Under the pieces are notes generated by a model. That model did no database searches. It was not told where the DNA came from and saw only the letters and a list, made by a program, of their open reading frames with translations. Of a stretch of DNA of 64,000 nucleotides, positions 1 through 24,142 are shown piece after piece. The stretch comes from Adineta ricciae (lineage: Eukaryota > Rotifera > Eurotatoria > Adinetida > Adinetidae). Made by a program: the position numbers and the translations under genes. Position 1 is the stretch's first letter. Each line of letters opens with the position of its first letter. The stretch is taken from contig CAJNOJ010000461.1 of NCBI GenBank assembly GCA_905250025.1, positions 1 through 64,000 of the forward strand, in the 5' to 3' direction.

Positions 1-405
1 AACTACTGTAGAAGGGAGCTCCAGAGTTTATTGACTATAACAAAAGTTTTATTGATCGCTGTCAAATGTTAATCGGAGTAAAAAACAGTCATCAAAAACT
101 ACTCCCTGTGTGTCAGTTCCTTCGTGAACAAACATCATCGGTATGCTTTTTTCGGAATCTTCCTCCTTATCTTTACATTCGATGAGCCAATATGCAAAAT
201 CTAGTCTTGCTCTGGGCACATTTCGACAGATGATCTCAGTCCATTGTTCACTCTTCGTCGACCACGACCATGTGTCGTTGAGTGCTTGACCACTTCCTGC
301 TAATCCACCAAAGATGAATAACGTTGATGTTGTTTCGATCGAATCACCGCCATGTGCTGCACGGGCCATGGGAAAAGAGGACGACGAACGATGTTCGCTC
401 CGTCT
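1..405 (-). pseudogene. RABEPK-like kelch relic, C-terminal end only
   Basis: The reading frame from 369 down to 49 matches the last two kelch blades of the intact gene at 23046-24142, including the closing FDDCFLLRL segment. Upstream of about 400 the similarity stops and the sequence jumps to the spacer that normally precedes the PPR 3' end. The junction falls on a GATGTTCG word that occurs at both parental sites, suggesting a deletion through short homology. The first half of the protein, with its start and propeller closure, is absent. It could still be transcribed but should not make a folded propeller. Confidence 0.75.
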
Positions 406-506
406 AGAGCGATGATGAAGGCGTGGTCATTCATGTCCTCGAAAGGTTTCAACCATTTATTTTCAACTACTTTTCAATTAATCAACAAACAAATAACGAA
501 AAGTCT

Positions 507-3500
507 TCAAAAATAATCGTTACACGAACATTGCCCGTTTTTATGAAAGTGATGAATTCGATTCGCATCTCGAACTATTATTTCACATTGACGAATTGCA
601 GCGATCAACTTTGTTGCTCGATCTAAAACACAAATTCATCAAATGAATTACTCACATCAAACATCAAATCAACACTTACGACAATCGCCACACACTCTCA
701 AGTTCTTCATGATTTGAATTCTTTTCGCGTGAGGATTAGCCACGAAATTTTATGCCATCGCAAGTCGCTCACTATGACCACAGAGAACCGATTCGACACT
801 TTCATCTTCACCCATCGTTCGAGTTATCCAACTGGAATCGTACTCATGGCCATGTGCGACTAATTCTTTTGACATTTTCTGGACTTCACGATAGATTTCG
901 TCTGATCGAGGATGAGATATGTCATGAGCGCGAAATTCCTACAATCAAATCATTTCATATTACTTCAAACAAGACATCGTAAGTCGTGTTCGGACTTACA
1001 TACATTTCTCCATCAACTACAGTCGTTGATGTACCGATCTTCTTCTTTGCTCCGGATTTTCTGTGTTGAGTTCGAATATGTGATGCCTTTCCTATGTCAC
1101 CAGATGATGCATAGGTGTTCGCAAGAAGAACTTTAGCTGCTGTCAAGGAATCTTTCATGGACGGAAACAATCTCTTCAGTTGATCATAGATATTCTGTGC
1201 TAACTGAGCATTCTTATCATTTCTTGCACCCGACAACAACGCCACTAAAAGAAAGGAAAAGAAACACGATCAATACGTTGATTTCAGCTATGCTGTTGTC
1301 CTTCAGTGGAGGAATTATCTGAAACGATAACACTTACTGTGCATATCTACGACGGGTGGATACGAACGTTCGAATTCATCGATCAACGTCTGTGCTTCAT
1401 CGAACAAAGATGCACGAGCAAGGCAATCGATCTACACGAAAAGCAACGGTGATTGAACACTTCCTCCAACTAGATTAATCAAGTTTGTCAATATACCATG
1501 GTCGTCCACACTGTCGGTGTTTTCGGTTCAATCTTTTCAAAGATAGAGCGAGCTTGGTCAACTAGGCCAGAGTGTGAACATGCATTCAATATGCAAATAT
1601 AAGTCACTTCATGGATGAACTCTTTGGGCATTTGAGAGAACAGTTCAAGAGCTTGCATACCCATTCCATTGAGACCATAACAATTGACTAAATATTAAGC
1701 TTTCATAGCGAATTGATCGTCAACAAACAATAACTTTAGTCTTCCATACTCATTGTTGTGTATAGAAATGCGTGTCTTTGAGAAGTGTCTTCGAAAATCT
1801 TTCGTGCATTGTCTATACATCCAGTTTTACCCTACGAAAGCGATCCGTTTACGATGAAACAGACGAAATGACCTTTATCTTACCCACATATCAATCAGAG
1901 CATTGCGAATCTGACTATCGAGAAGAATCGATTCAGGTATTTGGTTGATTGTTGGTTCGACAAGTGAAAGATCACCGATGAGTGCTAAAGCTTTGATAAC
2001 GCACAAATAAATAATCGTTTCCGGTTCTAAACCTTCACGTTTCATTCGATAAAACAGTTGCATAGTTTTTTTCCCTTGCTTTTCATCGTTGAATCCATTC
2101 ATAAGATTCCCGTAACTGACTATCGATCTTTTCATTTTCGAAAACATTATCTCCGCCGTGAATGTGTCCCTACATTTGATTAACGCATCTAACAGAGAAG
2201 TTGCCACGTAATCATCCGAATAAAATGATGCTGGCATTCTCTTCGAAATCGTTTTTGCCAAAGCTAAAGCTTCTGGAGTTCGCAATTGAGCACAAGCGCT
2301 GAACACGAGACTTGTGTTGACATGGTCAGGATGTTCAATTTCTCTGAAGAGGTCAACAGCTTTGTCTGCTTGATTATTCTCAATATAGCCTAAATGAAAA
2401 CAGTCAACTGGACTCAGTTACGTGAGACATATCGATATACCTTTCATCATCGCTCCATATATAGGAAGCGTCTTTTTCGTTTCTAGTGTAGTGAATATGA
2501 GTTCCGCATGTTCCACATCTCCACATTTCACCAGTGCATCCAGTAAAGACGTGATAATGAACTCATTCTGAAGAAATGACTGGTTCATAATTGATAAGAC
2601 GTGTTTCGTCAAATTCAGTGCTTCTGGCGTTCGTAGCTGCGCACAAGCATTGAAGAGGAGATTGATAATAATCGCATCAGGAGGATCGATCTTCTCGAAT
2701 AGATCAATGGACTTTTGTGCTTGATTACTCGCAATATAACCTGAAAAACAACTCAATTCAATGCACACAGATACAAAATATACATACCTTTCATCATTGC
2801 ACCGTACATAGGAAGTTGCTTTGTCTTTATTGTCTCGAATATCTTCTCAGCGTGCTCTACATCTTCACATTCCACCAATGCATTCAATAACGATGTAACC
2901 AGACGATGATTTGAGTGAAATGTCTTTCGTGTTTGCTGTGACACCTTTTTCATGGCGTCCAATGCTCGTTGCGTCTTCAGATCGGCACAAACTTGGAAGA
3001 ATACAACAAGATTCACCTCACTCGGTGTTTGGATTTGATGAAAAACTTCGAATGCTTTCTGTGCTTCATTGTTTGTCAGATATCCTACAAGAACTTGTTC
3101 TATTTTTATACTAACGTGCACATGAAATAAGTCACCTTTCATCATCGCGCCGTACATAGATGGAACTTTTGTCTTTGTGTCATGAAATAGTGTTTCAGCA
3201 CTTCGAATATCACCACATTGCACTATGAAAAGCAAAAGACATGCGACGGACAATATATTGATGAAACTTACTGTACATATGGATGAGTGATGTCACTATG
3301 TATTCATTTTCCTTCGTGTGTGAGGAAACAAGATCATGAATCGCTTTACCACTTCGAATATCTTTGAGACGAGCACATGCTTTCAGAGCCTGTGCAATCA
3401 CCGATCTTGACAGAGTTTCGTTGTTGTTTTTTTGATGTTGATGAAAAAGTTGAAGTGCTTGTTGGAATTGTTTGCTATCGTTCAATGTCTTCAATCGATC

Positions 3501-3590
3501 GCCGAGACTACAAGCGAATCTGATGATTGTGGTTCCTTTAAGGAGACTCATGAGAGGCACTAAACCATAATTTAATGATGGTCTCCACAT
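507..3590 (-). pseudogene. PPR-DYW copy 1, nonsense codon in the DYW domain
   Basis: Eleven exons are recognisable: N-terminal exon (start MWRPSLNYGL at 3590), short linker exon, three P-L-S triplet exons, then the six exons of the C-terminal PPR, E and DYW part. Splice sites look usable. In the DYW exon the codon after HSERLAMA is TAA (750-752) where every other copy has TGG, the result of CC to TT on the plus strand at 750-751. This removes the CGDC-H zinc ligands and the terminal CSCNDYF block. C-to-U editing cannot repair a UAA codon. The TATA-like motif upstream (4034-4050) is also altered. Most likely a young pseudogene, although a truncated PPR protein without deaminase is possible. 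Confidence 0.8.
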
Positions 3591-4264
3591 GAACTAACTT
3601 TGTAGAAGTAACTTGCGACCTAAAGTACGACAAATGTCAAGAAAAGATTTTTAAACGAGACCAAAGATAATTACGGCGACGAATAAACGAAAAGAAAGCC
3701 TTTTCTTCACGAAAGAAAATAGATCGGGTTAATTTCGGCTTAGAACAGCGTGTGTCTTCACTTCGAGAGCGAATGCATCGATCGGAAGCTAGAACGAAAA
3801 CCAACTAAATGTCGTTTTCGTCGATTCGATGGAAAGACAGAAACCTAATTAGACTTTCATTGCTGCAATAATTTTCTATGCACTTTAGGAAGTGACTGTA
3901 ATATGGACATTAAAGTTCGAATTAATAGAGTTTCTTAAAATAACATTCATTCATTCATTCGTTCGTTCGAGACAAGACAAGAGAAGAACCTATCGCATTT
4001 CATTAGTGGTTAACGAAAATTGATATGAATAAATATGTATAGATGGTGCTGGAGTGTTGATCACCATATGCTAAAAAAGACATCGTTATCAAAAGCTTCT
4101 CCTTGGGTGTGTGTTACTGTATGATGATATACTTTCAATCGGAACATCACCCTGTGTTGTGTATGCATAACATAAGACCAAAAGCCGATGGGCGATCTTC
4201 ATCATCTCTGGAGTAATCATGAAGGTGTAATCATTGCCCGTCTTCCAAAGGTTTTAACATTCTA
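3591..4264. other. Array spacer between PPR copies 2 and 1
   Basis: No gene is seen. The stretch is the 5' flank of PPR copy 1 and the 3' flank of copy 2, and is similar to 12615-13320. It holds a short CATT/CGTT tetranucleotide run near 3945-3970 and the degenerate TATA motif at 4034-4050. A transposable element interrupts its left-right continuity at 4265. Confidence 0.6.
4034..4050 (-). promoter_or_regulatory. Degenerate array promoter motif upstream of PPR copy 1
   Basis: On the minus strand this is AGCACCATCTATACATA, against AGCGCCATCTATAAATA upstream of copies 3 and 6. The TATA core has become TATACATA. It lies about 440 bp upstream of the copy 1 start codon. Promoter function is inferred from conservation and TATA resemblance only. 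Confidence 0.4.
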
Positions 4265-5191
4265 ACGGGTGAGTCAGAAACAATGAGTCTCTCTGTATTT
4301 GACGAATATCTCTATTATAGTTTGACGTGAATACTTGAGTTTGCTTTACAAAAGATAGCTCGTGAAATTCTCTACAAATTCTGATAGCAAGAGTTCTTCC
4401 AACGAATCATCCTAAAATTATACCAAGTCAATCTAACAATGCCCTAAATAAGCCCACTTTCAAATACGCATTTTATAAAACTAACCATTTTAATTCTTCA
4501 AACTAGATAATTAGAAAACTCTCTTTTGATGTCAGACTACTGTGTCGTTAGACTCGCTTTTCCAAATAAAGTTGAAACGTGGCTGTTTGAAAACAATTCC
4601 GAGTGTCCATCGGTCAGTGTTCTTGAAACGTAAGTAGGAACTATCTGATTGTTCGGTTCCGAGTCTTCATCATTGCAGCAACTAACTTTGTATCACACTA
4701 TTTCCATGAGAACTAGAGAGAAAACATTTTACTTTAATTTTTCAACAGATCTGAATGAGTAACAACGGCTCATTAGTCTGTCGAATCCAAAATTATAAGG
4801 AACTTCAAAGTAAGATTTTTTGAATGAAACTAGCGGACAACCAAGGTTAGACTTTTCCAGTTAAATTGGCAACACATCGAAATGACGTTTACACCAACTG
4901 ATAGAGCATTTCACCGACTATAAATTCCCCCAGCAAAATTTTCTCCAAGTGAACGAAGGAACTATAGAATGGTAAATTTGAGCGACAGTGTTTTGAAATT
5001 GGACCGCTTAAAGGCATTGTAAGATTGACTTGGTGTAATTTTACGGAGACTCTTCCGAAGAATTCTTTCCTTCAGGATTTGTAGAAAATTTCATCTACTG
5101 TCTTTTGGAAAGCAAACTCGAGTTTTCACGGCAAACTATAAGAGACATATTCACGAACCATAGAGAGCCACCTTCTTTCTGACTCACCCTT
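4265..5191. mobile_element. MITE-like element with TA target duplication
   Basis: The left end reads ACGGGTGAGTCAGAAA and the right end is its inverse, TTTCTGACTCACCCTT, with one mismatch. Both ends are flanked by TA (4263-4264 and 5192-5193), and the empty site is visible in the paralogous spacer near 13255, where the same flanks are joined around a single TA. Inverted similarity runs well inward: 4318-4445 resembles the reverse complement of about 5010-5143 with scattered mismatches. No open frame of useful length is present, so it is non-autonomous. TA duplication is typical of the Tc1/mariner superfamily. It lies just 3' of PPR copy 2. Confidence 0.85.
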
Positions 5192-5237
5192 TATTTTCAA
5201 CTCTTTTCTATTTAATTCACAAACAAAGGACAAAAGT

Positions 5238-8200
5238 CTTCAAAAATAATCGTTACACGAACATTGCCCGTTTTTATGAAAGTGATGAATTCGATTTGCA
5301 TCTCGGACTATTATTTCACATTGACGAATTGCAGCGATCAACTTTGTTGCTCGATCTAAAACACAAATTCATCAAATGAATCACTCACATCAAACATCAA
5401 ATCAACACTTACGACAATCGCCACACACTCTCAAGTTCTTCGTGATTTGAATTCTTTTCGCGTGAGGATTAGCCAAGAAATTCCATGCCATCGCAAGTCG
5501 CTCACTATGACCACAGAGAACCGATTCGACACTTTCATCTTCACCCATCGCTCGAGTTATCCAACTAGAATCGTACTCATGGCCATGTGCGACTAATTCT
5601 TTTGACAATTTCTGCACTTCGCGATAGATTTCGTCTGATCGAGGATGAGATCTGTCATGAGCTCGAAATTCCTATAATCGAATTATTCCATATTGCTTCA
5701 AGGAAGAAACTATAAGTTATGTTCAAACTTACATAAATTTCTCCATCAACTACAGTCGTTGATGTACCGATCTTCTTCTTTACTCCGGATTTCATGTGTT
5801 GAATTCGAATATCAGCCGCCTTTCCTATGTCACCAGATGATGCATAAGTGTTTGCAAGAAGCACTTCAGCTGCTGTCAACGGATCTTTCGTGGATGGAAA
5901 CAGAGTCTTCATTCGATCATAGATATTCTGTGCTAACTGAGCATTCTTATCATTTCTTGCACCCGACAACAACGCCACTAAAACAAATGAAAAAAAATTC
6001 AATGAATATATTGATTTCAGCCATGCTGTTGTCCTTTAGTGGAGGAATTATCTCAGATGATGACACTTACTGTACATAGCTATTGCGGCTCGATGCGAAC
6101 GTTCGAATTCATCGATCAACGCTTGTGCTTCATCGAACAAAGATGCACGAGCAAGGCAATCGATCTACATGTAAAGCAAAGATAATTGAGCACTTTCTTC
6201 AATTAGATTAATCAAGTTTGTCAATATACCATGGTCGTCCATACTGTCGGTGTTTTCGATTCAATCTTTTGAAAGATCGAGCGAGCTTCGTCAACTAGAC
6301 CAGAGTGTGAACATGCATTCAATATGCAAATATAAGTCACTTCATGGATGAACTGTTTTGGCATATGAGAAAACAGTTCAAGAGCTTGCATGCCCATTCC
6401 ATTGAGACCATAACAATTGACTAAATATGAAGGATTTAAAGCGACTTGATCTTCAACAAACAATAACTTCAGTCTTCCATACTCATTGTTGTGTATAGAA
6501 ATGCGTGTCTTTGAGAAGTGTTTTCGAAAATCCCGTGTGCTTTGTCTACACATCCAGTTTTACCCTACGAAAGCGATCCGTTTAACATGAAACAGACGAA
6601 ATGACCTTTATCTTACCCACATATCAATCAAAGCATTGCGAATCTGACTATCGAGAAGAATCGATTCAGGTATTTGGTTGATTGTTGGTTCGATAAGTGA
6701 AAGATCACCGATGAGTGCTAAAGCTTTGATAACGCACAAAAAAATAATCGTTTCCGGTTCTAAACCTTCACGTTTCATTCGATAAAACAATTGCATTGTT
6801 TTTTTCCCTTGCTTTTCATCGTTCAATCCATTCATAAGATTCCCGTAACTGACTATCGATCTTTTCATTTTCGAAAAGACTATCTCCGCCGTGAGTGTGT
6901 CCTTACATTTGATCAACGCATCTAACAGAGAACTGGCGACATAATCATCCGAATAAAATGATGCTGGCATTCTCTTCGAAATCGTCTTTACCAAAGCTAA
7001 AGCTTCTGGAGTTCGCAATTGAGCACAAGCGCTGAACAGGAGACTTGTGTTAACATCGTCAGGATTTTTAATTTCTCTGAAGATGTCAACAGCTTTGTCT
7101 GCTTGATTATTCTCAATATAGCCTAAATGAAAACAGTCAACTGGATTCAGTTACGTGAGAATATCGATATACCTTTCATCATCGCTCCACATATATGAAG
7201 CGTCTTTTTCGTTTCTAGTGTAGTGAATATGAGTTCCGCATGTTCCACATCTCCACATTTCATCAGTGCATCCAGTAAAGATGTGATAATGAACTCATCC
7301 TGAAATAATGTCCTGTTCATAACAGTAGAGACGCGTTTTGTGAAATTTAACGCTTCTGGCGTGCGTAGCTGCGCACAAGCATTGAAGAAAAGATTTGTGA
7401 TGATTGCATCAGGACCATCGATCCTGTTGAATAGATCAATGGCCTTTTGTGCTTGGTTACTAGCAATAAAACCTGAATAAAAAGACGCAACAAGATTCAG
7501 TTATGTGTGACATATTGATGTACTTTTCATCATTGCTGCACATATAGGGAGTGTCTTTTTCGTTTCTATCGTACTGAATATGAGTTCTGCACATTCCACA
7601 TCTCCACATTTCATCAATGCATCCAGTAAAGATGTGACAATGAAGTCATTCTCAAAAAATGACTTGTTCATCATTGTGGAAACGCGTTTTGTGATATTTA
7701 AGGCTTCTGGCGTTCGTAGTTGCGCACAACCATTGAAGAGAAGATTTGTGATGATCGCATCAGGATGATCGATCTTCTTGAATAGATCAATGGCTTTCTC
7801 TGATTGATTAATTGCAATATAACCTAAATAATAACTGAATACAGTACTGACGGGTACAAAACATACGTACCTTTCATCATCACACCGTACATAGGAAGTA
7901 GCTTTGCATTTATTGTGTCGAATATCTTCTCAGCGTGCTCTACATCTCCACATTCCACCAATGCATTCAATAACGATGTAACCAGGCGATGATTTGAATG
8001 GAAATTTGTTGGCGTTTGCTGTAACATCTTTTTCATGGCGTCCAATGCTGGTTGCGTCTTCAGAACGGCACAAACTTGGAAGAATACAATAAGATTCACC
8101 TCACTCGGTGTTTGGATTTCATGAAAAACTTCGAATGCTTTCTGTGCTTTATTGTTTGTCAGATATCCTACAAGAACTTGTTCTATTTTATACTTTCTTG

Positions 8201-8670
8201 CACATGAAATAAGTCACCTTTCATCATCGCACCGTACATAGATGGATCTTTTGTCTCCGTAGCATGAAACACTGTTTCAGCACTTGAAATGTCACCACAT
8301 TGCACTATGCGAAGAAAAGCATGCGACGGACAATAGATTGATGAAACTCACTGTACATATGGATGAGTGATGTTACTATGTATTGATCATCTTTGGTGCG
8401 TGATGTAACAAGAGCATGGATCGCTTTACCACTTTGAATATCTCTTAGATGAGTACACGCCTTCAGAGCTTGTGTGATCGTTAAACTGGACAGAATTTCA
8501 GTATTGTTTTTTTGATGTTGATGAAAAAGTTGAAGTGCCTGTTGGAATTGTTTGCTATCGTTCAATGTCTTCAGTCGATCGCCGAGATTAGAAGCGAATC
8601 TGATGATTGTGGTTCCTTTAAGGAGACTCATGAGAGGTACTAAACCATAATTTAACGATCGTCTCCACAT
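5238..8670 (-). CDS. PPR-DYW protein, copy 2 (four P-L-S triplets)
   Basis: Probable organellar RNA-binding protein of the plant-type PLS class with a C-terminal DYW cytidine-deaminase-like domain, about 930 residues from 12 exons. The N-terminus [10 protein letters not shown] is basic and hydrophobic, compatible with a mitochondrial presequence. Four central exons each hold one P-L-S triplet ending in G-x-MMK-G/S, with the second splicing through AAA-A/GT to give Ser. After them come a short S/E-type region, the E/E+ stretch, then GHSERLA, CGDC-H, REIIVRD-like, HHF and CSCNDYF. The HxE and CxxC zinc and catalytic residues are kept. I found no stop or broken splice site. A MITE lies 47 bp past the stop. 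C-to-U editing activity is inferred from the family, not shown. Confidence 0.85.
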
Positions 8671-8855: not shown

Positions 8856-8883
8856 AGAGACCATTAAAAGTGTCAAAGTTTTA

Positions 8884-9500
8884 TTAATCATTATCAAATA
8901 CAAAACGTAGTAAAAACCATTCATGAAAAACTACTCCCTGTGTGTCAATTCCTCCCTGAACAAAGATCATCGGTATGCTTTTTTCGGAATCTTCCTCCTT
9001 ATCTTTACATTCGATAAGACACTATGCAAAATCTAGTCTTGCTTTGGGCACATTTCGACAGACGAAATCAATCCACTGTTCACTCTTCGTCGACCACGAC
9101 TATGTGTCGTTGAGTGCTTGACCACTTGCTGCTAATCCACCAAAGATGAAAAACGCTGATGTCGTTTCGATCGAATCACCGCCATGTGCTGCACGGGCTA
9201 TGGCAAAAGAGGACGACGAATGATGTTCGTTCCATCCACATCACCTTGAAGGTAGAGACGTTCTTTGTCAAGTGATAACAAACAATGACCATGGCGCTGC
9301 TCAGTTAGTGATCCATATGCTGGAACACACGACCATGTTTTGAAAACTAGAAACGCCACGCGATTCACTTCATCAAGAACATAGACGATTGAAGAAAAAG
9401 CGACAACTGTGGTCGAATGGCTGACACGTAGCGGAGGTGAGCGAGATTTACTGTGAATTTCGAACCAGTCAAATGGAACAAGAGACGTTAGGGAAGGCAT
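8884..9500 (-). pseudogene. RABEPK-like kelch relic with internal deletions
   Basis: It starts like the intact kelch gene (MPSLTSLVPFDWFEIH) but within 40 residues jumps from the first blade into exon 2, losing most of exon 1 and the intron. A second deletion, between two GATGG words, removes the MDGRTFF to PPRW segment and shifts the frame, giving an early stop near 9198. The remaining C-terminal blades are present out of frame down to about 8884. The relic at 16973-17604 has the same two deletions, so both were present before the unit was duplicated. Confidence 0.85.
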
Positions 9501-9874
9501 CTCTCGGATAAAGAAGACAATAACTTCAATTAAGTCTCTTTTCTGTTCTTGCTGCTAAAAACATCGAAGTTCAAGATCTCGAAAAGCTATCGCGTTCAAT
9601 TCTTGGTCAAAGCACTTTACACATGTGAACAGATATTTATCGAGGATCCCGCAGTGTTGTTAACCGTACCAATACGCACAATTATCAAAAGCTTCTCTTT
9701 CAGTCGAAGGATCACCTTGCGTTGTATATCCATGTCATAAGACTGAATAACGATGGCGGATGTTCGTTCTCTCTAGAGCGATGATGAAAATGTGCTCATT
9801 CATGTCCTCAAAAGGTTTCAACCCTTTATTTTCAACTCTTTTCTATGTAATCGACAAACAAAGGACAAAAGTCT
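9501..9874. other. Array spacer between kelch relic and PPR copy 3
   Basis: Nothing codes convincingly. A 63-codon plus-strand frame at 9549-9740 is repeated at 17638-17829, but both copies belong to the duplicated spacer and there is no domain or codon bias to support it. The segment is the 3' flank of PPR copy 3. Confidence 0.5.
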
Positions 9875-12614
9875 TCAAAAATAATCGTTACACGAACATT
9901 GCCCGTTTTTATGAAAGTGATGAATTCGATTTGCATCTCGAACTATTATTTCACATTGACGAATCGCTGCGATCAACTTTGTTGCTCGATCTAAAACACA
10001 AATTCATCAAATGAATTACTCACATCAAACATCAAATCAACACTTACGACAATCGCCACACACTCTCAAGTTCTTCGTGATTTGAATTCTTTTCGCGTGA
10101 GGATTAGCCACGAAATTCCATGCCATCGCAAGTCGCTCACTATGACCACAGAGAACCGATTCGACACTTTCGTCTTTACCCATCGTTCGAGTTATCCAAC
10201 TAGAATCGTACTCATGGCCATGTGCGACTAATTCTTCTGAGATTTTCTGCACTTCGCGATAGATTTCGTCTGATCGAGGATGAGATGTGTCATGAGCGCG
10301 AAATTCCTACAATCAAATCATTTCATATTACTTCAAACAAGACATCGTAAGTTGTGTTCGAACTTACATAAATTTCTCCATCAACTACAGTCGTTGATGT
10401 ACCGATCTTCTTCTTTGCACCGGATTTGGTGAGTTGAATTCGAATATCTGATGCTTTCCCGATGTCACCACACGATGCGTAAGTGTTCGCAAGAAGAACT
10501 TTAGCTGCTGTCAAGGAATCTTTCGTGGATGGGAACAATCTCTTCAGTCGATCACAGATAGTCTGTGCTAGCTGAGCATTCTTATCATTTCTTGCACCCG
10601 ACAACAACGCCACTAAAACAAATCAAAATAAATCCAATGAATACGTTGCTTTCAGCCATGCTGTTGTCCTTCAATGGAGGAATTATCTCAGATGATAGCA
10701 CTTACTGTGCATAGTCATTGCGGCTGGATGCGAACGTTCGAATTCCTCGATCAACGTCTGTGCTTCATCGAACAAAGATGCACGAGCAAGGCAATCAACC
10801 TACACGAAAAGCAGAGGTGATTGAGCAGTTCCACCTCCTTCAACTTGAATAATCATGTGTGTGAATATACCATGGTTGTCCACACTGTCGGTGTTTTCGA
10901 TTCAATCGTTTGAAAGATTGAGCGAGCTTCGTCAACAAGACCAGAGTGTGAACATGCATTCAATATGCAAATATAAGTGACTTCACGAATGAACTCTTTG
11001 GGCATTTGAGAGAACAGTTCAAGAGCTTGCATGCCCATTCCATTGAGCCCATATGAGTTAACTACGAATAAGCACAAAATTGAACATTGTGGTTGACATA
11101 ATCACAGAATAAATAGATGCATACTCATCGTTGTGTATGTAAATGCGTCTGGCTCAGAAATGTTCGCGTAAATCTCTTGTGCTTTGTCTACACATCCAGT
11201 TTTACCCTACCAAAAATGACTCACTTAACACGAACTAAACGCTATGTTCTTTGTCTTACCCACATATCGATCAAAGCATTGCGAATCTGAGTATCAAGAA
11301 GAATCGATTGAGGTAGTTGGTTGATTGTTTCTTCGATAAGTGAAAGATCGCCGGTGAGTGCTAATGCTTTGATAACACACAAGGAAGTGATGATATCTGG
11401 CTCTAACCCTTCACGTTTCATTTGGTAAAACAATTGCATCGTTTGTTTTCCTTCTCTTTGGTCGTTGAATCCGGTCATCAGATTTGCGTAGGCGATCACC
11501 GGTCTTCTCATTTTGGAGAAAACGACCTTCGCAGTGGACGTATCTCCACATTTGACCAGTGCATCTAGCAAGGAAGTGGTTACATAGTCATTTGAATAAA
11601 ATGACGACGACATGTTCTTGTAAGTCTGTTTAACTAAACTTAAAGCTTCTGGCGTTCGTAGCTGCGCACAAGCATTGAAGAGGAGATTTATAATAATCGC
11701 ATCAGGACGATCGATCCTCTTGAATAGATCAATGGCCTTTTGTGCTTGATTACTCGCAATATAACCTGAATATCAACTCAATTCAATCCACACGGGCATA
11801 AAACATAGATACCTTTCATCATCGTACCATACATAGGAAGTTGCTTTGCCTTTATGGAGTCAAATATCTTCTCAGCGAGCTCTACATCTCCACATTCCAC
11901 CAATGCATTCAACAACGATGTAACCAGGCGATGATTTGAATGGAAATTTGTTGGCGTTTGCTGTAACATCTTTTTCATGGCGTCCAATGCTGGTTGCGTC
12001 TTCAGAACGGCACAAACTTGGAAGAATACAATAAGATTCACCTCACTCGGTGTTTGGATTTCATGAAAAACTTCGAATGCTTTCTGTGCTTCACTGTTTG
12101 TCAGATATCCTACAAGAACTTGTTCTATTTTATACTTTCTTGCATATGAAACTAGTCACCCTTCATCATCGCACCGTACACAGATGGAACTTTTGTCTCT
12201 GTGCCATGAAACAGTGTTTCAGCGCTTCGAATATCACCACATTGCACTATGAAAAGCAAAAGACATGCGACGGAGGATTGATTGATGGAACTTACTGTAC
12301 ATATGGATGAGTGATGTCACTATGTATTCATTTTCCTTCGTGCGTGAGGAAACAAGATCATGAATCGCTTTACCACTTCGAATATCTTTGAGACGAGCAC
12401 ATGATTTCAGACCTTGCGCAATCGCCGAACTTGACAGAGTTTCGTTGTTGTTTTTTTGATGTTGATGAAAAAGTTGAAGTGCCTGTTGGAATTGTTTGCC
12501 ATCGTTCAATGTCTTCAATCGATCGCCGAGATTAGAAGCGAATCTGATGATTGTGGATCGTTTAACGAAAGCCATGAGCGGTGGTAAGCCACCATTTAAC
12601 GATCGTCTCCACAT
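9875..12614 (-). CDS. PPR-DYW protein, copy 3 (two P-L-S triplets)
   Basis: Shortest member, ten exons and about 730 residues. The N-terminal exon begins [19 protein letters not shown], a variant shared with copy 4. Only two triplet exons remain: the YLTNN-type exon, and a hybrid whose start is [14 protein letters not shown] and whose end is the final-triplet exon finishing at RNALIDMW. The hybrid suggests an unequal exchange that deleted one or two triplets. The C-terminal exons are complete: [33 protein letters not shown], the HSERLA/CGDC exon and the terminal CSCNDYF exon. With fewer motifs it should bind a shorter RNA stretch than its neighbours. No disabling change found. Confidence 0.85.
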
Positions 12615-13320: not shown

Positions 13321-16300
13321 TCAAAAATAATCGTTACACGAACATTGCCCGTTTATATGAAAGTGATGAATTCGATTTGCATCTCGAACTATTATTTCAC
13401 ATTGACGAATTGCAGCGATCAACTTTGTTGCTCGATCTAAAACACAAATTCATCAAATGAATCACTCACATCAAACATCAAATCAACACGTACGACAATC
13501 GCCACACACTCTCAAGTTCTTCGTGATTTGAATTCTTTTCGCGTGAGGATTAGCCACGAAATTCCATGCCATCGCAAGTCGCTCACTATGACCACAGAGA
13601 ACCGATTCGACACTTTCGTCTTCACCCATCGTTCGAGTTATCCAACTAGAATCGTACTCATGGCCATGTGCGACTAATTCTTTTGACAATTTCTGCACTT
13701 CGCGATAGATTTCGTCTGATCGAGGATGAGATCTGTCATGAGCTCGAAATTCCTATAATCGAATTATTCCATATTGCTTCAAGGAAGAAACTATAAGTTA
13801 TGTTCAAACTTACATAAATTTCTCCATCAACTACAGTCGTTGATGTACCGATCTTCTTCTTTGCGCCGGATTTCATGTGTTGAATTCGAATATCACCCGC
13901 CTTTCCTATGTCACCAGACGATGCATAAGTGTTTGCAAGAAGAACTTCAGCTGCTGTCAAGGAATCTTTTATAGTAGGAAATAGTGTCTTCAGTTGATCA
14001 TAGATATTCTGTGCTAACTGAGCATTCTTATCATTTCTTGTACCCGACAACAACGCCACTAAAAGAAAGGAAAAGAAACACGATCAATGCGTTGATACCA
14101 TTCACACTGTTGTCGTTCACCGAGGACTCACCGCAGATGATGACACTTACTGTACATAGCTACGACGGGTGGATGCGAACGTTCGAATTCATCGATCAAC
14201 GTCTGTGCTTCATCGAACAAAGATGCACGAGCAAGGCAATCGATCTACATGTAAAGCAAAGATAATTGAGCACGTCCTTTTTCTTCAATGAGATTAATCA
14301 AGTTTGTCAATATACCATGGTCGTCCACACTGTCGGTGTTTTCATTTCAATCTTTTGAAAGATCGAGCGAGCTTCGTCAACTAGGCCAGAGTGTGAACAT
14401 GCATTCAATATGCAAATATGAGTCACTTCGTGAATAAACTGTTTTGGCATTTGAGAGAACAGTTCAAGAGCTTGCATACCCATTCCATTGAGACCATAAC
14501 AATTGACTAAATATGAAGGGTTTATAGCGAATTGATCGTCAACAAACAATAACTTTAGTCTTCCATACTCATTGTTGTGTATAGAAATGCGTCTTGATCA
14601 GAAGTGTTTTCGAAAACCGCTTGTGCTTTGTCTACACATCCAGTTTTACCCTACGAAAGCGATCCGTTTACCATGAAACCGACGAAATGACCTTTATCTT
14701 ACCCACATATCAATCAAAGCATTGCGAATCTGACTATCGAGAAGAATCGATTCAGGTATTTGGTTGATTGTTAGTTCGATAAGTGAAAGATCACCGATGA
14801 GTGCTAAAGCTTTGATAACACACAAGTAAGTGATCAGCTCGGGCTCTAGACCTTCACGTTTCATTCGATAAAACAATTGCATTGTTTTTTTTCCTTGTTT
14901 TTCGTCGTTGAATCCAGTCATAAGGTTCCCATAATTCACGATCGATCTATTTACTTTCGAAAACACGATCTCCGCCGTGAGTGTGTCCCTACATTTGATC
15001 AGTGCATTCAACAGAGAGCTGCCGACATAATCATCCGAATAAAATGATGCTGGCATTCTCTTCGAAATCGTCTTTACCAAAGCTAAGGCTTCTGGGGTTC
15101 GCAATTGAGCACAAGCGCTGAACAGGAGACTTGTGTTGACATCGTCTGGATGTTTAATTTCTCTGAAGAGGTCAACAGCTTTGCCTGCTTGATTATTCTC
15201 AATATAGCCTAAATGAAAACAGTCAACTGGATTCAGTTACGTGAAACATATCGATATACCTTTCATCATGGCTCCATATATAGGAAGCGTCTTTTTCGTT
15301 TCTAGTGTAGTGAATATGCCTTGAGCATACTCCACATCTCCACATTTCATCAATGCATCCAGTAAAGATGTGATAATGAACTCATTCTCAAGAAATGACT
15401 TGTTCATCACTGTGGAAACGCGTTTTGTGATATTTAACGCTTCTGGCGTTCGTAGCTGCGCACAACCATTGAAGAGAAGATTTGTGATGATCGCATTCGG
15501 ATGATCGATCTTCTTGAATAGATCAATGGCTTTCTCTGATTGATTACTCGCAATATAACCTAAATGAAAACAATCAACTAGATTCGGTTACGTGAAACAT
15601 ATGAATGTACCTTTCATCATCGCTCCATATATAGCGAGTGTCTTTCTGGTCTGTGCTGTACTGAATATGAGTTCCGCACATTCCACATCTCCACATTTCA
15701 TCAGTGCATCCAGTAAAGATGTGACAATGAAGTCATTCTCAAAAAATGACTTGTTCATCATTCTAGAGACCTGTTTCGTCAAATTCAATACTTCTGGCGT
15801 TCGTACTTGTGCACAAGCATTGAAGAGAAGATTTGTGATGATCGCATCAGGATGATCGATCCTCTTGAATAGATCAATGGCCTTTTGTGCTTGATTACTC
15901 GCAATATAACCTGAATAATAACTTAATACAGTACTCGCGGGTACAAATCATACGTACCTTTCATCATCGCACCGTACATAGGAAGTAGCTTTGCCTTTAT
16001 TGTCTCGAATATCTTCTCAGCGTGCTCTACATCTCCACATTCCACCAATGCATTCAATAACGATGTAACCAGGCGACGATTTGAATGGAAATTTGTTCGC
16101 GTTTGCTGTAACACCTTTTTCATGGCGTTCAATGCTCGTTGGGTCTTCAGATCGGCACAAACTTGGAAGAATACAATAAGATTCACCTCACTCGGTGTTT
16201 GGATTTCATGAAAGACTTCGAATGCTTTCTGTGCTTTATTGTTTGTCAGATATCCTACAAAGAGCTGTTCTATTTTACGCTTTCATACACATGAAACAAA

Positions 16301-16757
16301 TCACCTTTCATCATCGCACCGTACATAGATGGATCTTTTGTCTCCGTAGCATGAAACAGTGTTTCAGCACTTGAAATGTCACCACATTGCACTATGTGAA
16401 GAAAAGCATGCGACGGACAATATATTGATGGGACTCACTGTACATATGGATGAGTGATGTTAGTATGTATTGATCATCTTTGGTGCGCGATGTAACAAGA
16501 TCATGAATCGCTTTACCACTTCGAATATCTTTTAGACGAGCACACGCTTTGAGAGCCTGTGCAATCACCGAACTTGACAGAGTTTGATTGTTGTTTTTTT
16601 GATGTTGATGAAAAAGTTGAAGTGCCTGTTGGAATTGTTTGCTATCGTTCAATGTCTTCAATCGATCGCCGAGATTAGAAGCGAATCTGATGATTGTGAA
16701 CCGTTTAACGAACGCCATGACCGGTGGTAAGCTACCATTTAACGGTCGTCTCCACAT
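13321..16757 (-). CDS. PPR-DYW protein, copy 4 (four P-L-S triplets)
   Basis: Twelve exons, about 930 residues. The N-terminal exon combines an [19 protein letters not shown] start, as in copy 3, with a [10 protein letters not shown] end, as in copies 2, 5 and 6, so it is a mosaic. Four triplet exons follow, then the C-terminal exons with HSERLA, CGDC-H and CSCNDYF. The donor after CGDC is GTACGT rather than GTAAGT but still canonical. The intron before the DYW exon is the same variant as in copy 2. No stop or frameshift was seen. Presumed mitochondrial RNA-binding and editing-type factor. Confidence 0.85.
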
Positions 16758-16927: not shown

Positions 16928-16944
16928 TATTTATAGATGGTGCT
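16928..16944 (-). promoter_or_regulatory. Putative TATA promoter of PPR copy 4
   Basis: Minus-strand AGCACCATCTATAAATA, 171 bp upstream of the copy 4 ATG, between it and the kelch relic stop at 16973. Confidence 0.5.
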
Positions 16945-16972
16945 AGAGTCCATTAAAAGTGTCAAAGTTTTA

Positions 16973-17604
16973 TTAATCATTATCAAATACAAAACGTAGT
17001 AAAAACCACTCATGACAAACTACTCCCTGTGTGTCAATTCCTCCGTGAACAAAGATCATCGGTATGCTTTTTTCGGAATCTTCCTCCTTATCTTTACATT
17101 CGATAAGACAACATGCAAAATCCAGTCTTGCTTTGGGCACATTTCGACAGATGATCTCAGTGCACTGTTCACTCTTCGTCGACCACCACCATGTGTCGTT
17201 GAGTGCTAGACCACTTCGTGATAATCCACCAAAGATGAATAACGTTTATGTCATTTCGATCGAATCACCGCCATGTGCTGCACGGGCCATGGGAAAAGAG
17301 GACGACGAATGATGTTCGTTCCATCTACATCACCTTGAAGGTAGAGACGTTCTTTCTCAAGTGATAACAAACAATGACCATGGCGCTGCTGACTTAGTGA
17401 TCCATATGCTGGAACACACGGCGATGTTTTGAAAACTAGAAACGCCACGCGATTTACTTCACCAAGAATATAGACAATTGAAGAAGAAGGGACAAATGTG
17501 CTCGACTGACCGACACGTGGCTGAGGTGAACGAGATTTACTGTGAATTTCGAACCCGTCAAATGGAACAGGACATGTTAGCGAAGGCATCTGTCGGATAA
17601 CCAA
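16973..17604 (-). pseudogene. RABEPK-like kelch relic with internal deletions
   Basis: Opens with MVIRQMPSLTCPVPFDGFEIH, equivalent to the intact gene start, then skips from the first blade to exon 2 and loses the segment between two GATGG words, shifting the frame. The stop reached near 17251 truncates it. It carries the same deletion endpoints as 8884-9500 but has further private substitutions, consistent with a relic duplicated together with the PPR pair. Confidence 0.85.
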
Positions 17605-17964
17605 GACAATAACTTCAATTAACTCTCTTTTCTGTTCTTGCTGCTAAAAACATCGAAGTTCAAGATCTCCAGAAACTATCGCGTTCAATTCTTGGTTAAA
17701 GAACTCTACATATACGAACAGATCTTCATCGATGATCCCGCAGTGTTGTTAACCGTACCAATACGCACAATTATCAAAAGCTTCTCTTTCACTCGAAGCA
17801 TCACCTTACGTTGCATATGCATGTCATAAGACTGAATAACGATGGCGGATGTTCGTTCTCTCTAGAGCGATGATGAAACTATGCTCATTCATGTCCTCGA
17901 AAGATTTTAACGATTTATTTTCAACTACTTTCCATTTAATCGACAAACAAACAACGAAAAGTCT
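17605..17964. other. Array spacer between kelch relic and PPR copy 5
   Basis: Counterpart of 9501-9874, with no supported gene. Confidence 0.5.
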
Positions 17965-20900
17965 TCAAAAATAATCGTTACACGAACATTGCCCGTTTTT
18001 ATGAAAGTGATGAATTCGATTTGCATCTCGAACTATTATTTCACATTGACGAATTGCAGCGATCAACTTTGTTGCTCGATCTAAAACACAAATTCATCAA
18101 ATGAATCACTCACATCAAACATCAAATCAACACTTACGACAATCGCCACACACTCTCAAGTTCTTCGTGATTTGAATTCTTTTCGCGTGAGGATTAGCCA
18201 CGAAATTCCATGCCATCGCAAGTCGCTCACTATGACCACAGAGAACCGATTCGACACTTTCATCTTCACCCATCGTTCGAGTTATCCAACTAGAATCGTA
18301 CTCATGGCCATGTGCGACTAATTCTTTTGACATTTTCTGCACTTCGCGATAGATTTCGTCTGATCGAGGATGAGATATGTCATGAGCGCGAAATTCCTAC
18401 AATCAAATCATTTCATATTACTTCAAACAAGACATCGTAAGTTGTGTTCGAACTTACATAAATTTCTCCATCAACTACAGTCGTTGATGTACCGATCTTC
18501 TTCTTTGCGCCGGATTTCATGTGTTGAATTCGAATATCAGCCGCCTTTCCTATGTCACCAGATGATGCATAAGTGTTTGCAAGAAGCACTTCAGCTGCTG
18601 TCAAGGAATCTTTTATAGTGGGAAATAATTTCTTCAGTCGATCATAGATATTCTGTGCTAACTGAGCATTCTTATCATTTCTTGCACCCGACAACAACGC
18701 CACTAAAACAAATCAAAATCAATCCAATGAATATGTTGATTTCAGCCATGCTGTTGTCCTTTAGTGGAGGAATTATCTCAGATGATGACACTTACTGTGC
18801 ATATCTACGACCGGTGTATTCGAACGTTCGAATTCATCGATCAACGTCTGTGCTTCATCGAACAAAGATGCACGAGCAAGGCAATCGATCTACACGAAAA
18901 GGAACGGTGATTGAACACTTCCTCCAACTAGATTAATCAAGTTTATCAATATACCATGGTCGTCCATACTGTCGGTGTTTTCGATTCAATCTTTTGAAAG
19001 ATCGAGCGAGCTTCGTCAACTAGACCAGAGTGTGAACATGCATTCAATATGCAAATATAAGTCACTTCATGGATGAACTCTTTGGGCATTTGAGAGAACA
19101 GTTCAAGAGCTTGCATGCCCATTCCATTGAGACCATAACAATTGACTAAATATGAAGGGTTTATAGCGAATTGATCGTCAAAAAACAATAACTTCAGTCT
19201 TCCATACTCATTGTTGTGTGTGCAATTGCGTCTCGATGAGAAGTGTTTTCGAAAATCCCGTGTGCTTTGTCTACGCATCCAGTTTTACCCTACGAAAGCG
19301 ATCCGTTTAACATGAAACACACGAAATGACCTTTATCTTACCCACATATCAATCAAAGCATTGCGAATCTGACTATCGAGAAGAATCGATTGAGGTACTT
19401 GTTTGATTGTTAGTTCGATGAGTGAAAGATCACCGATGAGTGCTAAAGCTTTGATAACGCACAAATAAATAATCGTTTCCGGTTCTAAACCTTCACGTTT
19501 CATTCGATAAAACAATTGCATTGTTTTTTTTCCTTGTTTTTCGTCGTTGAATCCAGTCATAAGATTCCCGTAACTGACTATCGATCTTTTCATTTTGGAG
19601 AAGACTATCTCCGCCGTGAGTGTGTCCTTACATTTGATTAACGCATCTAACAGAGAAGTTGCCACGTAATCATCCGAATAAAATGATGCTGGCATTCTCT
19701 TCGAAATCGTCTTTACCAAAGCTAAAGCTTCTGGAGTTCGCAATTGAGCACAAGCGCTGAACAGGAGACTTGTGTTGACATCGTCTGGATGTTTAATATC
19801 TCTGAAGAGGTCAACAGCTTTGCCTGCTTGATTATTCTCAATATAGCCTAAATGGAAACAGTCAACTGGATTCAGTTACGTGAGACATATCGATATACCT
19901 TTCATCATGGCTCCATATATAGGAAGCGTCTTTTTCGTTTCTAGTGTAGTGAATATGCTTTGAGCATACTCCACATCTCCACATTTCATCAATGCATCCA
20001 GTAAAGACGTGATAATGAACTCATTCTCAAGAAATGACTTGTTCATAATTGATAAGACGTGTTTCGTCAAAGTCAGTGCTGCTGACGTTCGTAGTTGCGC
20101 GCAAGCATTGAAGAGAAGATTTGTAATGATTGCATCAGGACCATCGATCCTGTTGAATAGATCGATGGCCTTGTCTGCTTGATTGTTTGTGATATAGCCC
20201 TTCATCATTGCTCCATATGCTGCTACCGCCTTCTCATTTATTCTATTAAATATCGCTTCGGCGTGTTCAACGTCACCACATTCCATTGATGCATTCAGTA
20301 AAGATGTTAAAAGGTAAGCGTTTTTGTATAGCATCTTTGCTTCATCCTTTGCTACAGCTTTTACCAGAGCTAAAGCTTCCGCAGTGCGTAGTTGCGCACA
20401 AGCATTGAGGAGAAGATTGACTATGATGTCATTAGGACCTTTGATCTGTTTGAAAAGAGCAACGGCTTTTTCAGCTTGATTACTCGCAATAAAACCTGAA
20501 TACCAACTCAATTCAATCCACACGGGCATAAAACATAGATACCTTTCATCATTGCACCATATATAGGAAGTTGCTTTCCCTTTATTGTCTCAAATACCTT
20601 CTCAGCACGTTCTACATCTCCACATTTCACTAATGCATTTACTGATGATGTTGCAAGACGATAATTGGACTGGAGAGAGTTTTCCACTTTTATTAATACC
20701 TTCTTCAACGCATCCAATGCTCGTTGGGTCTTCAGATCTGCACAAACCTGGAAGAATACAACAAGATTCACCTCACTCGGTGTTTGGATTTCATGAAAAA
20801 CTTCGAATGCTTTCTGTGCTTTATTGTTTGTCAGATATCCTACAAGAACTTGTTCTATTTTATACTTTCTTGCACAATGAAACAAGTTACCTTTCATCAT

Positions 20901-21345
20901 TGCACCGTACACAGATGGAACTTTTGTCTTTGTACCATGAAACAGTGTTTCAGCACTTCGAACGTCACCACATTGCACTATGAAAAGCAAAAGACATGCG
21001 ATAGAGGATAGATTGATGAAACTCACTGTACATATGGATGAGTGACGTTACTATGTATTGATCATCTTTGGTGCGTGATGTAACAAGATCATGGATCGCT
21101 TTACCACTTCGAATATCTCTTAGATGAGTACACGCCTTCAGAGCTTGTGTGATCGTTAAACTGGACAGAATTTCAGTATTGTTTTTTTGATGCTGATGAA
21201 AAAGTTGAAGTGCCTGTTGGAATTGTTTGCTATCGTTCAATGTCTTCAATCGATCGCCGAGATTAGAAGCGAATCTGATAATTGTGGTTCCTTTAAGGAG
21301 ACTCATGAGAGGTACTAAACCATAATTTAATGATCGTCTCCACAT
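17965..21345 (-). CDS. PPR-DYW protein, copy 5 (four P-L-S triplets, one intron lost)
   Basis: Eleven exons, about 930 residues. Two triplets lie in a single long exon (about 19900-20500): the first ends GAMMKG and the next begins YITNN without an intron, where other copies have one. The remaining layout is: N-terminal exon to about residue 106, linker exon, YLTNN triplet, fused double triplet, final triplet to RNALIDMW, then [25 protein letters not shown], the E-domain exon [11 protein letters not shown] exon with GHSERLA and CGDC, and last exon ending CSCNDYF. Predicted DYW zinc ligands (HSE, CxxC, HH, CxC) are complete. The 5' flank is cut by the N gap at 21372, so its promoter is not visible. 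Confidence 0.87.
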
Positions 21346-21371
21346 GAACTAACTTTGTAGAAGTAATTTGC

Positions 21372-21414
21372 NNNNNNNNNNNNNNNNNNNNNNNNNNNNN
21401 NNNNNNNNNNNNNN
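21372..21414. other. Assembly gap (43 N) inside the PPR array
   Basis: Left of the gap is the 5' flank of PPR copy 5. Right of it is the middle of a final-triplet exon of copy 6. By comparison with the other pairs, the missing part should include the C-terminal half of copy 6, its 3' flank and a spacer, which is kilobases rather than 43 bases. The gap therefore marks a collapsed or mis-joined repeat. Confidence 0.9.
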
Positions 21415-22770
21415 TCAGTGCATCTAGCAAGGAAGTGGTTACATAGTCATTTGAATACAATGACGATGGCATGTTCTTGTAAGTCTGTTTAACTAAACTC
21501 AAAGCTTCTGCAGTTTGTATTTGAGCGCAAGCATTCAAGAGCAGATTTGTAATGATCGCATCTGGATGATCGATCTTCTTGAATAGGTCAATGGCCTTGT
21601 CTGCTTGATTGTTTGTGATATAGCCCTTCATCATTGCTCCATATGCTGCTACCGCCTTCTCATTTATTCTATTAAATATCGCTTCGGCGTGTTCAACGTC
21701 ACCGCATTCCATTGATGCATTCAGTAAAGATGTTAAAAGGTAAGCGTTTTTGTACAGCATATTTGCTTCATCTGTTGCTACAGCTTTTACCAGAGCTAAA
21801 GCTTCCGCAGTGCGTAGTTGCGCACAAGCATTGAAGAGAAGATTGATTATGATATCATTAGGACTTTTGACCTGTTTGAAAAGAGCAACGGCTTTTTCAG
21901 CTTGATTACTCGCAATATAACCTGAAAAACAACTCAATTCAATCCACACGGACATAAAACATAGATACCTTTCATCATTGCACCATATATAGGAAGTTGC
22001 TTTGCCTTTATTGTCTCGAATATCTTCTCAGCACGTTCTACATCTCCACATTTCACTAATGCATTTACTGATGATGTTGCAAGACGATAATTGGACTGGA
22101 GAGAATTTTGCACTTTTAGTAACACCTTTTTCAACGCATCCAATGCTCGTTGGGTCTTCAGATCTGCACAAACTTGGAAGAATACAATAAGATTCACCTC
22201 ACTCGGTGTTTGGATTTCATGAAAGACTTCGAATGCTTTCTGTGCTTCATTGTTTGTCAGATATCCTACAAGAACGTGTTCTATTTTATACTTTCTTGCA
22301 CATGAAACAAGTTACCTTTCATCATCGCACCGTACACAGATGGAACTTTTCTCTTTGTGTCATGAAACAGTGCTTCAGCACTTCGAACGTCACCACATTG
22401 CACTATGAAAAGAAAAAGACATGCGATGGAGGATAGATTGATGGAACTCACTGTACATATGGATGAGTGATGTTACTATGTAATGATCATCTTTGGTTCG
22501 TGATGTAACAAGATCATGAATCGATTTCCCACTTCGAATATCTCTTAGATGAGTACACGCCTTCAGAGCTTGTGTGATCGTTAAACTGGACAGAATTTCA
22601 GTATTGTTTTTTCGATTTTGATGAAAAAGTTGAAGTGCCTGTTGGAATTGTTTGCTATCGTTCAATGTCTTCAATCGATCGCCGAGATTAGAAGCGAATC
22701 TGATAATTGTGGTTCCTTTAAGGAGACTCATGAGAGGTACTAAACCATAATTTAACGATCGTCTCCACAT
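21415..22770 (-). CDS. PPR-DYW protein, copy 6, cut by the assembly gap
   Basis: Exon 1 starts [10 protein letters not shown] at 22770 and is nearly identical to copy 5. The linker exon, a YLTNN triplet and an intron-less double-triplet exon ([10 protein letters not shown] followed by [10 protein letters not shown]) follow, so it shares the lost intron with copy 5. The frame is open up to TTSLLDAL at the gap. The last readable part ([10 protein letters not shown]) resembles copy 3 rather than copy 5. Whether it has a DYW domain cannot be told. Partial because of assembly, not necessarily in the genome. Confidence 0.75.
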
Positions 22771-22942
22771 GAACTAACTTTGTAGAAGTAATTTGCTATC
22801 TAAATTAAGACAAACATCATGAAACCGCTTTGAAACAATACTGAAGACAATTAGGACGAATGAGCGAAAATCAAGTAACCATATGAGGGGATTCGAAAAT
22901 TCTGCAGCTAAAGTATTGGATATGGAACTTCGCGTTAACACA

Positions 22943-22959
22943 TATTTATAGATGGCGCT
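22943..22959 (-). promoter_or_regulatory. Putative TATA promoter of PPR copy 6
   Basis: Minus-strand AGCGCCATCTATAAATA, 173 bp upstream of the copy 6 ATG and just 3' of the intact kelch gene, the clearest example of the array motif. Confidence 0.5.
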
Positions 22960-23045
22960 GATGTGTGCGAGTCATCGTGAAAGTATATCAGAAGAACAAC
23001 TACTGTAGAAGGGAGCTCCAGAGTTTATTGACTATAACAAAAGTT

Positions 23046-24142
23046 TTATTGATCGCTGTCAAATGTTAATCGGAGTAAAAAACAGTCATCAAAAACTACT
23101 CCCTGTGTGTCAGTTCCTCCGTGAACAAACATCATGTGTATGTTTTTTTCGGAATCTTCCTCCTTATCTTTACATTCGATAAGACAATATGCAAAATCTA
23201 GTCTTGCTCTGGGCACATTTCGACAGATGATCTCAGTCCACTGTTCACTCTTCGTCGACCATGACCAGGTGTCGTTGAGTGATTGACCACTTCGCGATAA
23301 TCCACCAAAGATGAATAATGTCGATGTATGTTCGATCGAAACACCGCCATGTGCTGCACGTGCCATGGGGCAAGATGACGACGACGAACGGTGCTCGTTC
23401 CATCTGGGTGGCTTTTGAGTTAGATCAATAGAATAGAGCGATGAAAAAAAAGTTCGTCCATCCATACCACCGTGAAGGTAGAGACGTGCATTATCAAGTG
23501 ATAATAAACAGTGACCATGGCGCTGCTCAGGTGGTGATCCATAAGCTGGAACACACGACCATGTTTTGGAAACTAGAAACGAGACATGAGTGATATTCAG
23601 AATGTTTTTTTGTTCTGGAGGAAAGCATTACCTAAATCAAATCGATATAACTCAGAGTCATCTACTGATTTGGCTCCTTGAAAACCACCGCTGAATATAT
23701 ACAAACCATGTTGAATACAACAACTTGAATGATGAGTTCGTGGTGAAACTAGTTTATTATCTTTCGGTGTCCAACTTTCGATTGTTTTTGTTAAAATATT
23801 AAACACATGAACGTCGTTGTGATTGTTTTCTGAATCAGCACCACCGAAGAAAACGATTTGATCTGGATTTTCTGTAGATAAAACAGCAGAATGTTCATAA
23901 CGTCGAAGTGCCGGATCTTCAGCAAGTAATTTCGTCCAAAGAAATGTGTCCGATGTTTTGGATGGAAGTGCAAGTGAATGAACATCTGCAAAACATTCCG
24001 ATGGATTCGCTCCACCAAGAACATAGATTGTTGACGATGAAGGAACAAATGTGCTTGAATGGCCGACACGTAGCTGAGGTGAACGAGAATTACTATGAAT
24101 TTCGAACCAGTCAAATGGAACAAGAGATGTTAGCGAAGACAT
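23046..24142 (-). CDS. RABEPK: Rab9 effector kelch protein (RABEPK-like), intact copy
   Basis: Two exons (24142-23632 and 23572-23046) joined by a 59-bp phase-1 intron give 345 residues, close to the 372 of human RABEPK. Kelch blades with GG pairs are visible: YVLGGANPSECFADVHS, then RRYEHSAVL with VFFGGAD, SPRTHHSS with YIFSGGF, RHGHCLL with YLHGGMDG, AAHGG with FIFGG, and a final HGGTDTQGVVFDDC that matches the family's closing strand. In the family this six-bladed cytosolic propeller helps endosome-to-Golgi recycling with Rab9. It lies upstream of PPR copy 6 in the same orientation. Its three other copies in the array are all broken, so this is the only functional source in the window. Confidence 0.88.

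Follow-up and report, generated by a model that had tools for sequence, protein, structure and literature searches.

Land-plant editing factors of the PLS class of pentatricopeptide repeat (PPR) proteins combine PLS repeats with an E+ motif and a DYW domain carrying HxE and CxxC motifs. They have a basic N-terminus, and their family has undergone lineage-specific expansion. Plant-type DYW-PPR proteins are also found outside plants, in Naegleria, Acrasis and Physarum, where they are thought to have been acquired horizontally; in Acrasis, cytidine-to-uridine (C-to-U) editing has been reported. Here we describe a tandem array of PPR-DYW genes in an animal, the bdelloid rotifer Adineta ricciae. 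The array lies in a window formed by bases 1-64,000 of contig CAJNOJ010000461.1 (67,009 bases), from an assembly of 130.5 Mb in 1,033 contigs. Its proteins share with the plant factors the PLS repeats, E+ motif, HxE and CxxC residues, basic N-terminus and lineage-specific expansion. They differ in their animal host, in introns that split the gene into about one exon per PLS triplet, in a C-terminus reading CSCNDYF instead of the CSCGDYW of plants, and in that editing is here a prediction. Beside the cases of Naegleria, Acrasis and Physarum, the rotifer one presents 81 DYW loci, and a tandem array in which a kelch gene appears to be carried along as a passenger.

Based on a genomic footprint in mitochondrial genes, the most likely function of the array is plant-type mitochondrial editing, an acquired system performing restorative C-to-U conversion. 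On balance we also favor a broader proposal: bdelloids would have horizontally acquired plant-type mitochondrial C-to-U editing, the first in an animal in the literature searched, and under it T-to-C mutations at essential codons could build up, and arise repeatedly, in lineages long without sex; the nuclear editor genes would keep multiplying in tandem arrays. In such a system, the PLS-E-DYW PPR proteins of the array would be imported into mitochondria, where they would change particular cytidines of mitochondrial transcripts to uridines. A T-to-C mutation at a conserved mitochondrial position would be tolerated, and would recur, because editing would bring the conserved residue back. Duplication, both tandem and dispersed, would have spread the DYW family after the bdelloid ancestor; within the array, the copies would be shuffled by unequal exchange and gene conversion, and duplication of a one-exon PLS module would alter the length of the RNA-binding tract. 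If this is true, an animal has adopted and multiplied plant organelle editing machinery, and published bdelloid mitochondrial protein sequences deduced from DNA are partly wrong. Bdelloids would then offer a natural setting in which to study the spread of restorative editing and to test the proposal that such editing benefits lineages that have long been asexual.

The array belongs to a bdelloid DYW family that was already known, and represents an expanded branch of it. In its available part, PMC4202320 works with DYW proteins from A. ricciae and Philodina roseola and places Naegleria together with the rotifer clade. Bdelloid mitochondrial DNA was sequenced in PMC3426538 (Lasek-Nesselquist 2012), in which the A. 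ricciae mitochondrial genes are RNA-derived and whose accession ranges are JX183989-JX184083 and JW861079-JW861112; in the accessible portion of that paper the word "editing" occurs once, as a methods heading. The accessible portion of PMC2784805 makes no mention of editing, and that of PMC12710240, on mitochondrial editing, no mention of rotifers. Among the matches listed in our literature searches, whose scope left subscription journals mostly outside, titles and abstract openings report no editing in bdelloid mitochondria or in these arrays.

Array architecture and the DYW family

Gene models were built from splice signals and codon use. The six PPR copies occupy about 0.5-22.8 kb of the minus strand, and all array genes share this strand. 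Read 5' to 3', the order is K1, c6, c5, K2, c4, c3, K3, c2, c1 and, at the contig start, K4:

23046..24142, minus strand: kelch gene K1, a 345-aa kelch propeller in two exons, intact in the gene model (PF24681, 305 bits)
21415..22770, minus strand: PPR copy c6, 5' part only, stopping at the assembly gap; as assembled it has no DYW domain
21372..21414: run of 43 N, the assembly gap between c6 and c5
17965..21345, minus strand: PPR-DYW copy c5, 942-aa model, intact; the model may include one short in-frame intron as exon
16964..17647, minus strand: kelch remnant K2, with stops
13321..16757, minus strand: PPR-DYW copy c4, intact in the gene model
9875..12614, minus strand: PPR-DYW copy c3, 726-aa model, intact; two fewer PLS modules than c2 and c4
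8875..9558, minus strand: kelch remnant K3, with stops
5240..8670, minus strand: PPR-DYW copy c2, 926-aa model, intact; 98.7% identical to the annotated A. ricciae protein P0241
510..3590 (3' limit about 510), minus strand: PPR-DYW copy c1, its DYW domain interrupted by a TAA that lies between HxE and CxxC
1..405, minus strand: kelch remnant K4, C-terminal part only, adjoining the contig start

The first-pass annotation had counted six DYW-class copies. Six PPR copies are in fact present, and five of them carry a DYW domain (PF14432), c6 stopping at the 43 N. Six is the number of copies assembled, and the true number may differ because the array runs up to the contig start and is interrupted by a gap. 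Four copies had been described as apparently intact with their HxE, CxxC and CSC-DY residues, and this description holds: c2, c3, c4 and c5 are open over 10-12 exons in the gene models, each with HSE, CGDC and CSCNDYF. By its sequence, c1 is probably a pseudogene. The c4 model begins at an inner ATG (16718), and the open frame contains an upstream ATG, with an MWRR start, at 16757; the one TGA in the first unspliced DYW match of this copy is intronic once spliced (exon end 13494, match start 13483).

The DYW domain is full length (107 bits), and the E+ motif scores 28.9 against a Pfam cut-off of 24 bits; the E motif falls below its cut-off (19.9 versus 27.3 bits). Pfam also finds PPR families, and by eye each one-exon module of about 100 aa reads as a P-L-S triplet. 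Among solved sequences, a synthetic PPR-DYW protein comes closest (E 1e-98). Introns in the c2 model measure 47-93 bases. The middle exons, of about 300 bases each, correspond to one PLS triplet and number two in c2 and c4, one in c1 and none in c3, with two fused in c5. The number of PLS modules thus varies among copies and with it the length of the RNA-binding tract. The array copies begin MWR.. and have an N-terminal composition with a net charge of +3 to +5.

The upstream regions of c2 and c4, which contain the kelch remnants, match at 91% over 1,205 bp, and those of c1 and c3, which contain no kelch sequence, at 76% over 676 bp; the upstream sequence of c5 is lost in the gap. Since the two kinds alternate, a kelch-PPR-PPR unit repeats, as had been proposed from the first reading of the sequence. 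An array by chance is excluded because a 300-bp DYW block (family D10) recurs at five places, 98-99% identical to the reference copy. The first reading had named the kelch partner as a RABEPK copy; what is established is a kelch propeller (PF24681, best solved relative LZTR1), and K1 is the sole intact kelch copy in the array. The only other kelch gene in the genome above 90% identity, at C371:70-1,159, also adjoins a PPR-DYW copy, and the kelch gene looks like a passenger of segmental duplications. At C1:5,050-6,350 (L040), an E-DYW stretch is preceded, at about 100 bases, by a kelch fragment that is 45% like K1, possibly an older trace of the kelch-PPR linkage.

Synonymous divergence (dS) differs from segment to segment. 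Between c1 and c3 it is 0.07 in the N-terminus and 0.51 in the PPR tract; between c2 and c4 it is 0.16 in the N-terminus, 0.23 in the PPR tract and 0.05 in E-DYW. Because these values are discordant, the copies are mosaics, as expected if unequal exchange and conversion have shaped them. The ratio of nonsynonymous to synonymous divergence (dN/dS) among intact copies is 0.18-0.55 (C-terminal blocks 0.18-0.46, N-terminal block 0.20-0.55). Over all pairs it is 0.18-0.46 in the C-terminal blocks and 0.20-0.63 in the N-terminal block, which has few changes. From these ratios, the intact copies look to be under purifying selection.

A profile search of the genome found at least 127 exon matches, making up at least 81 DYW loci on at least 48 contigs. 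Forty-two of the 81 are grouped in 17 clusters, of which the array is one. Together with the mosaic dS values and the varying number of PLS modules, these figures bear out the earlier claim of an expanding DYW family with local turnover. Because only some of these loci were retrieved, catalytic residues were counted on proteins. Among the best 120 of 1,271 relatives, 102 have both HxE and CxxC by a strict pattern match; 116 of the 120 carry the names of Adineta, Rotaria or Didymodactylos, and 98 of these 116 have both motifs. The remaining four of these 120 are 33-35% identical and provide the only GDYW ends there; 79 end in CSCNDYF, CSCQDHF or CSCQDYF. Homologues in Adineta, Rotaria and Didymodactylos indicate that the DYW family was probably already in the bdelloid ancestor. 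Listed relatives with an initial M number 114; in 71 of these, the first 25 residues are basic and acid-poor, versus 12.5% of internal windows; this fits mitochondrial-type N-termini in many DYW proteins, with targeting predicted from composition.

Some family members are unusual. The closest outside copy (C371:4,082-4,407, L004) has a contracted, apparently intronless DYW domain with residues missing after CGDC. Two other loci, L042 (C9) and L051 (C15), form a divergent DYW subgroup in which CPDC replaces CGDC, and L042 ends GDFL.

Mitochondrial cox1 and cob

The A. ricciae mitochondrial DNA forms the last 13.7 kb of contig C55, and twelve protein-gene frames (named by eye) are open in genetic code 5. 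This mitochondrial genome (C55:464,500-478,188) is attached to the end of a contig that looks nuclear, a junction that is probably an assembly chimera. From the best 120 sequences for each gene, we picked bdelloid-like ones by identity, 16 for cox1 (one named) and 88 for cob (seven named); the other animals among the 120 listed, 104 for cox1 and 32 for cob, served as controls. The columns tested were conserved in at least 80% of bdelloids and at least 90% of other animals (0.8/0.9).

At these columns, changes that a C-to-U edit would reverse are enriched in the bdelloid-like set. Counted by alignment cells, they amount to 28/62 versus 13/191 in other animals for cox1 and 69/179 versus 3/30 for cob; counted as distinct events, to 24/52 versus 5/85 and 27/101 versus 2/18. 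Leaving out R, which is ambiguous between codes, cox1 and cob together give 44/138 versus 7/103 events (Fisher p 8.5e-7), and two other threshold pairs give 29/96 versus 4/68 (p 6e-5) and 41/110 versus 3/45 (p 4e-5). F-to-L was dropped as well because a transversion can also produce it. The contrast then becomes 31/125 versus 1/97 events (p 5e-8), with 20/87 versus 0/64 and 29/98 versus 0/42 at the two other threshold pairs. Events present in at least two sequences are reversible in 17/33 versus 3/46 cases (p 7e-6). These p values are guides, as events shared by descent are not independent. Changes also recur: on the tree of 74 bdelloid-like sequences, each of two cob columns shows 10 changes.

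At F/L columns, F-to-S, L-to-S and L-to-P account for 23 of 66 bdelloid-like events versus 0 of 39 in other animals; changes in the reverse (U-to-C) direction number 8 events in bdelloids versus 11 in other animals. The pattern of gained C runs opposite to what base composition would suggest, as C makes up only 6% (768/12,287) of the mitochondrial stretch with the protein genes. In the named species, A. ricciae included, 8 of 13 changes are reversible: 6/10 in cob (A. ricciae 2, A. vaga 3, Philodina citrina 1) and 2/3 in cox1 (Rotaria rotatoria).

Within A. ricciae itself, we find three good candidates for sites that the array copies might edit, if they edit any in these genes:

cox1 codon 374, CTT (C55:467,334): L where other animals have F; T at -1; C-to-U would restore F
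cob codon 259, TCT (C55:471,813): S for F in PEWYF; T at -1; C-to-U would restore F
cob codon 342, CTT: L for F; C-to-U would restore the conserved F

At cob 259, S is also found in A. vaga, and F in the Habrotrocha, Philodina, Macrotrachela and Rotaria sequences compared. A further candidate, S for F in the PRFRYD motif of nad1, was rejected as no C-to-T change restores F.

Explanations compared

DYW deaminases prefer a pyrimidine before the edited C, and it is the catalytic domain, not the terminal tripeptide, that we take as defining DYW editing factors. Several observations weigh against mitochondrial editing by such proteins. The array copies end in NDYF and not in the D-Y-W tripeptide, and a pyrimidine before the C is a trend only (21/91 versus 5/41 columns, p 0.11). 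The bdelloid-like set consists mostly of metagenome proteins and the control set mostly of insects and other arthropods; the named species alone contribute few events (the 8 of 13 above). In A. ricciae, cox1 374 lies under the 80% bdelloid threshold and outside the 0.8/0.9 counts. For cox1 A377V, another candidate, the base at -1 is G and the residue in all 16 bdelloid-like sequences is A, so that it may be a real substitution. C-to-T would restore the bovine residue at 4/137 opportunities in cox1 and 1/59 in cob, within the range of other changes; three of these five sites, A377V among them, are in well-conserved motifs. It would restore the reference residue at 0/37 opportunities in nad1, 0/45 in cox3 and 0/58 in nad5. 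At animal-conserved columns, 2 of 34 A. ricciae differences in cox1 are C-to-T restorable (2 of about 21 single-step ones), and in cob 0 of 18 (0 of 13). Widespread plant-like editing in A. ricciae alone is not supported by these five comparisons, and about three good candidate sites in five genes are a poor match for 81 DYW loci. Finally, the PPR code of the array copies could not be read confidently and gave no firm RNA targets.

This mismatch is what one would expect if the proteins were active C-to-U deaminases acting mainly on other RNAs, such as nuclear transcripts, tRNAs or retroelement RNA. In addition, 43 of the 114 listed relatives fail the simple targeting-like criterion used above. 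We consider this unlikely, as the biased mitochondrial pattern and the basic N-termini of the array favor mitochondria for at least part of the family. Improbable too is the view that there is no editing at all, that the DYW genes act in RNA binding or processing, and that the F-to-S and L-to-S changes are real substitutions under relaxed selection in an asexual lineage. It draws on a pattern known from DNA only, on A. ricciae by itself having no excess, and on 32 of its 34 differences at conserved cox1 columns being unrestorable by one C-to-U. Relaxed selection, however, should make every class of change more frequent. Per cox1 cell, the reversible class is up about 13-fold (28/4,559 versus 13/28,184) and the rest about 1.2-fold (34/4,559 versus 178/28,184). 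Moreover, the catalytic residues are retained in 102 of the best 120 relatives.

The first-pass annotation had compared the locus to plant restorer-of-fertility clusters and suggested selection or conflict. Restorer PPRs are of the P class and under diversifying selection. Tandem clustering with copy turnover is shared with them, and the array could on this ground be imagined to diversify in an arms race that silences selfish mitochondrial transcripts. Yet it is of the PLS-E+-DYW class, and its DYW domains do not agree with P-class PPRs lacking DYW; its dN/dS is well below 1. Its code positions show no clear excess of variation (4/12 variable versus 78/288 elsewhere among c2-c5, and 2/12 versus 44/288 among c2, c4 and c5; the 12 were placed by eye and power is low). 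On these grounds we hold the arms race to be very improbable and set conflict aside; the mitochondrial evidence points to restorative editing instead. We give even less weight to the idea that assembly artefact or pseudogene decay accounts for most of the array. The contig does start beside a kelch remnant, an N gap lies inside the array, one copy carries a nonsense codon, and 12 of 34 DYW clusters or single loci (on contigs of known length) lie within 10 kb of a contig end versus about 5 expected. Against this, the copies differ by dS up to 0.5, too much for allelic duplicates; c1 has a counterpart at 99.3% on a separate contig of 4,512 bases; and four copies are open across their exons with dN/dS below 1. 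An artefact, which had been named from the start as the finding that would undo the case, is thus unlikely as the whole explanation, and mitochondrial C-to-U editing is the reading we retain.

Assembly context and neighboring genes

A second copy of the array was sought in regions of C94 and C98 that are 76-80% like the right flank, and these regions held no DYW match. At 11 contig ends, of which ten lie near DYW or PPR matches, 1.5 kb was scanned for telomere-like repeats (TGTGGG- or TTAGGG-type, at least 2-3 copies), and none were found. In the public annotation, P0243 (839 aa) appears to merge c3 (9,875-12,614) with the kelch remnant at 8,875-9,558. Just beyond the array, at 24,978-25,985 on the minus strand of the window, lies a long open frame that by eye is NHL-repeat-like.

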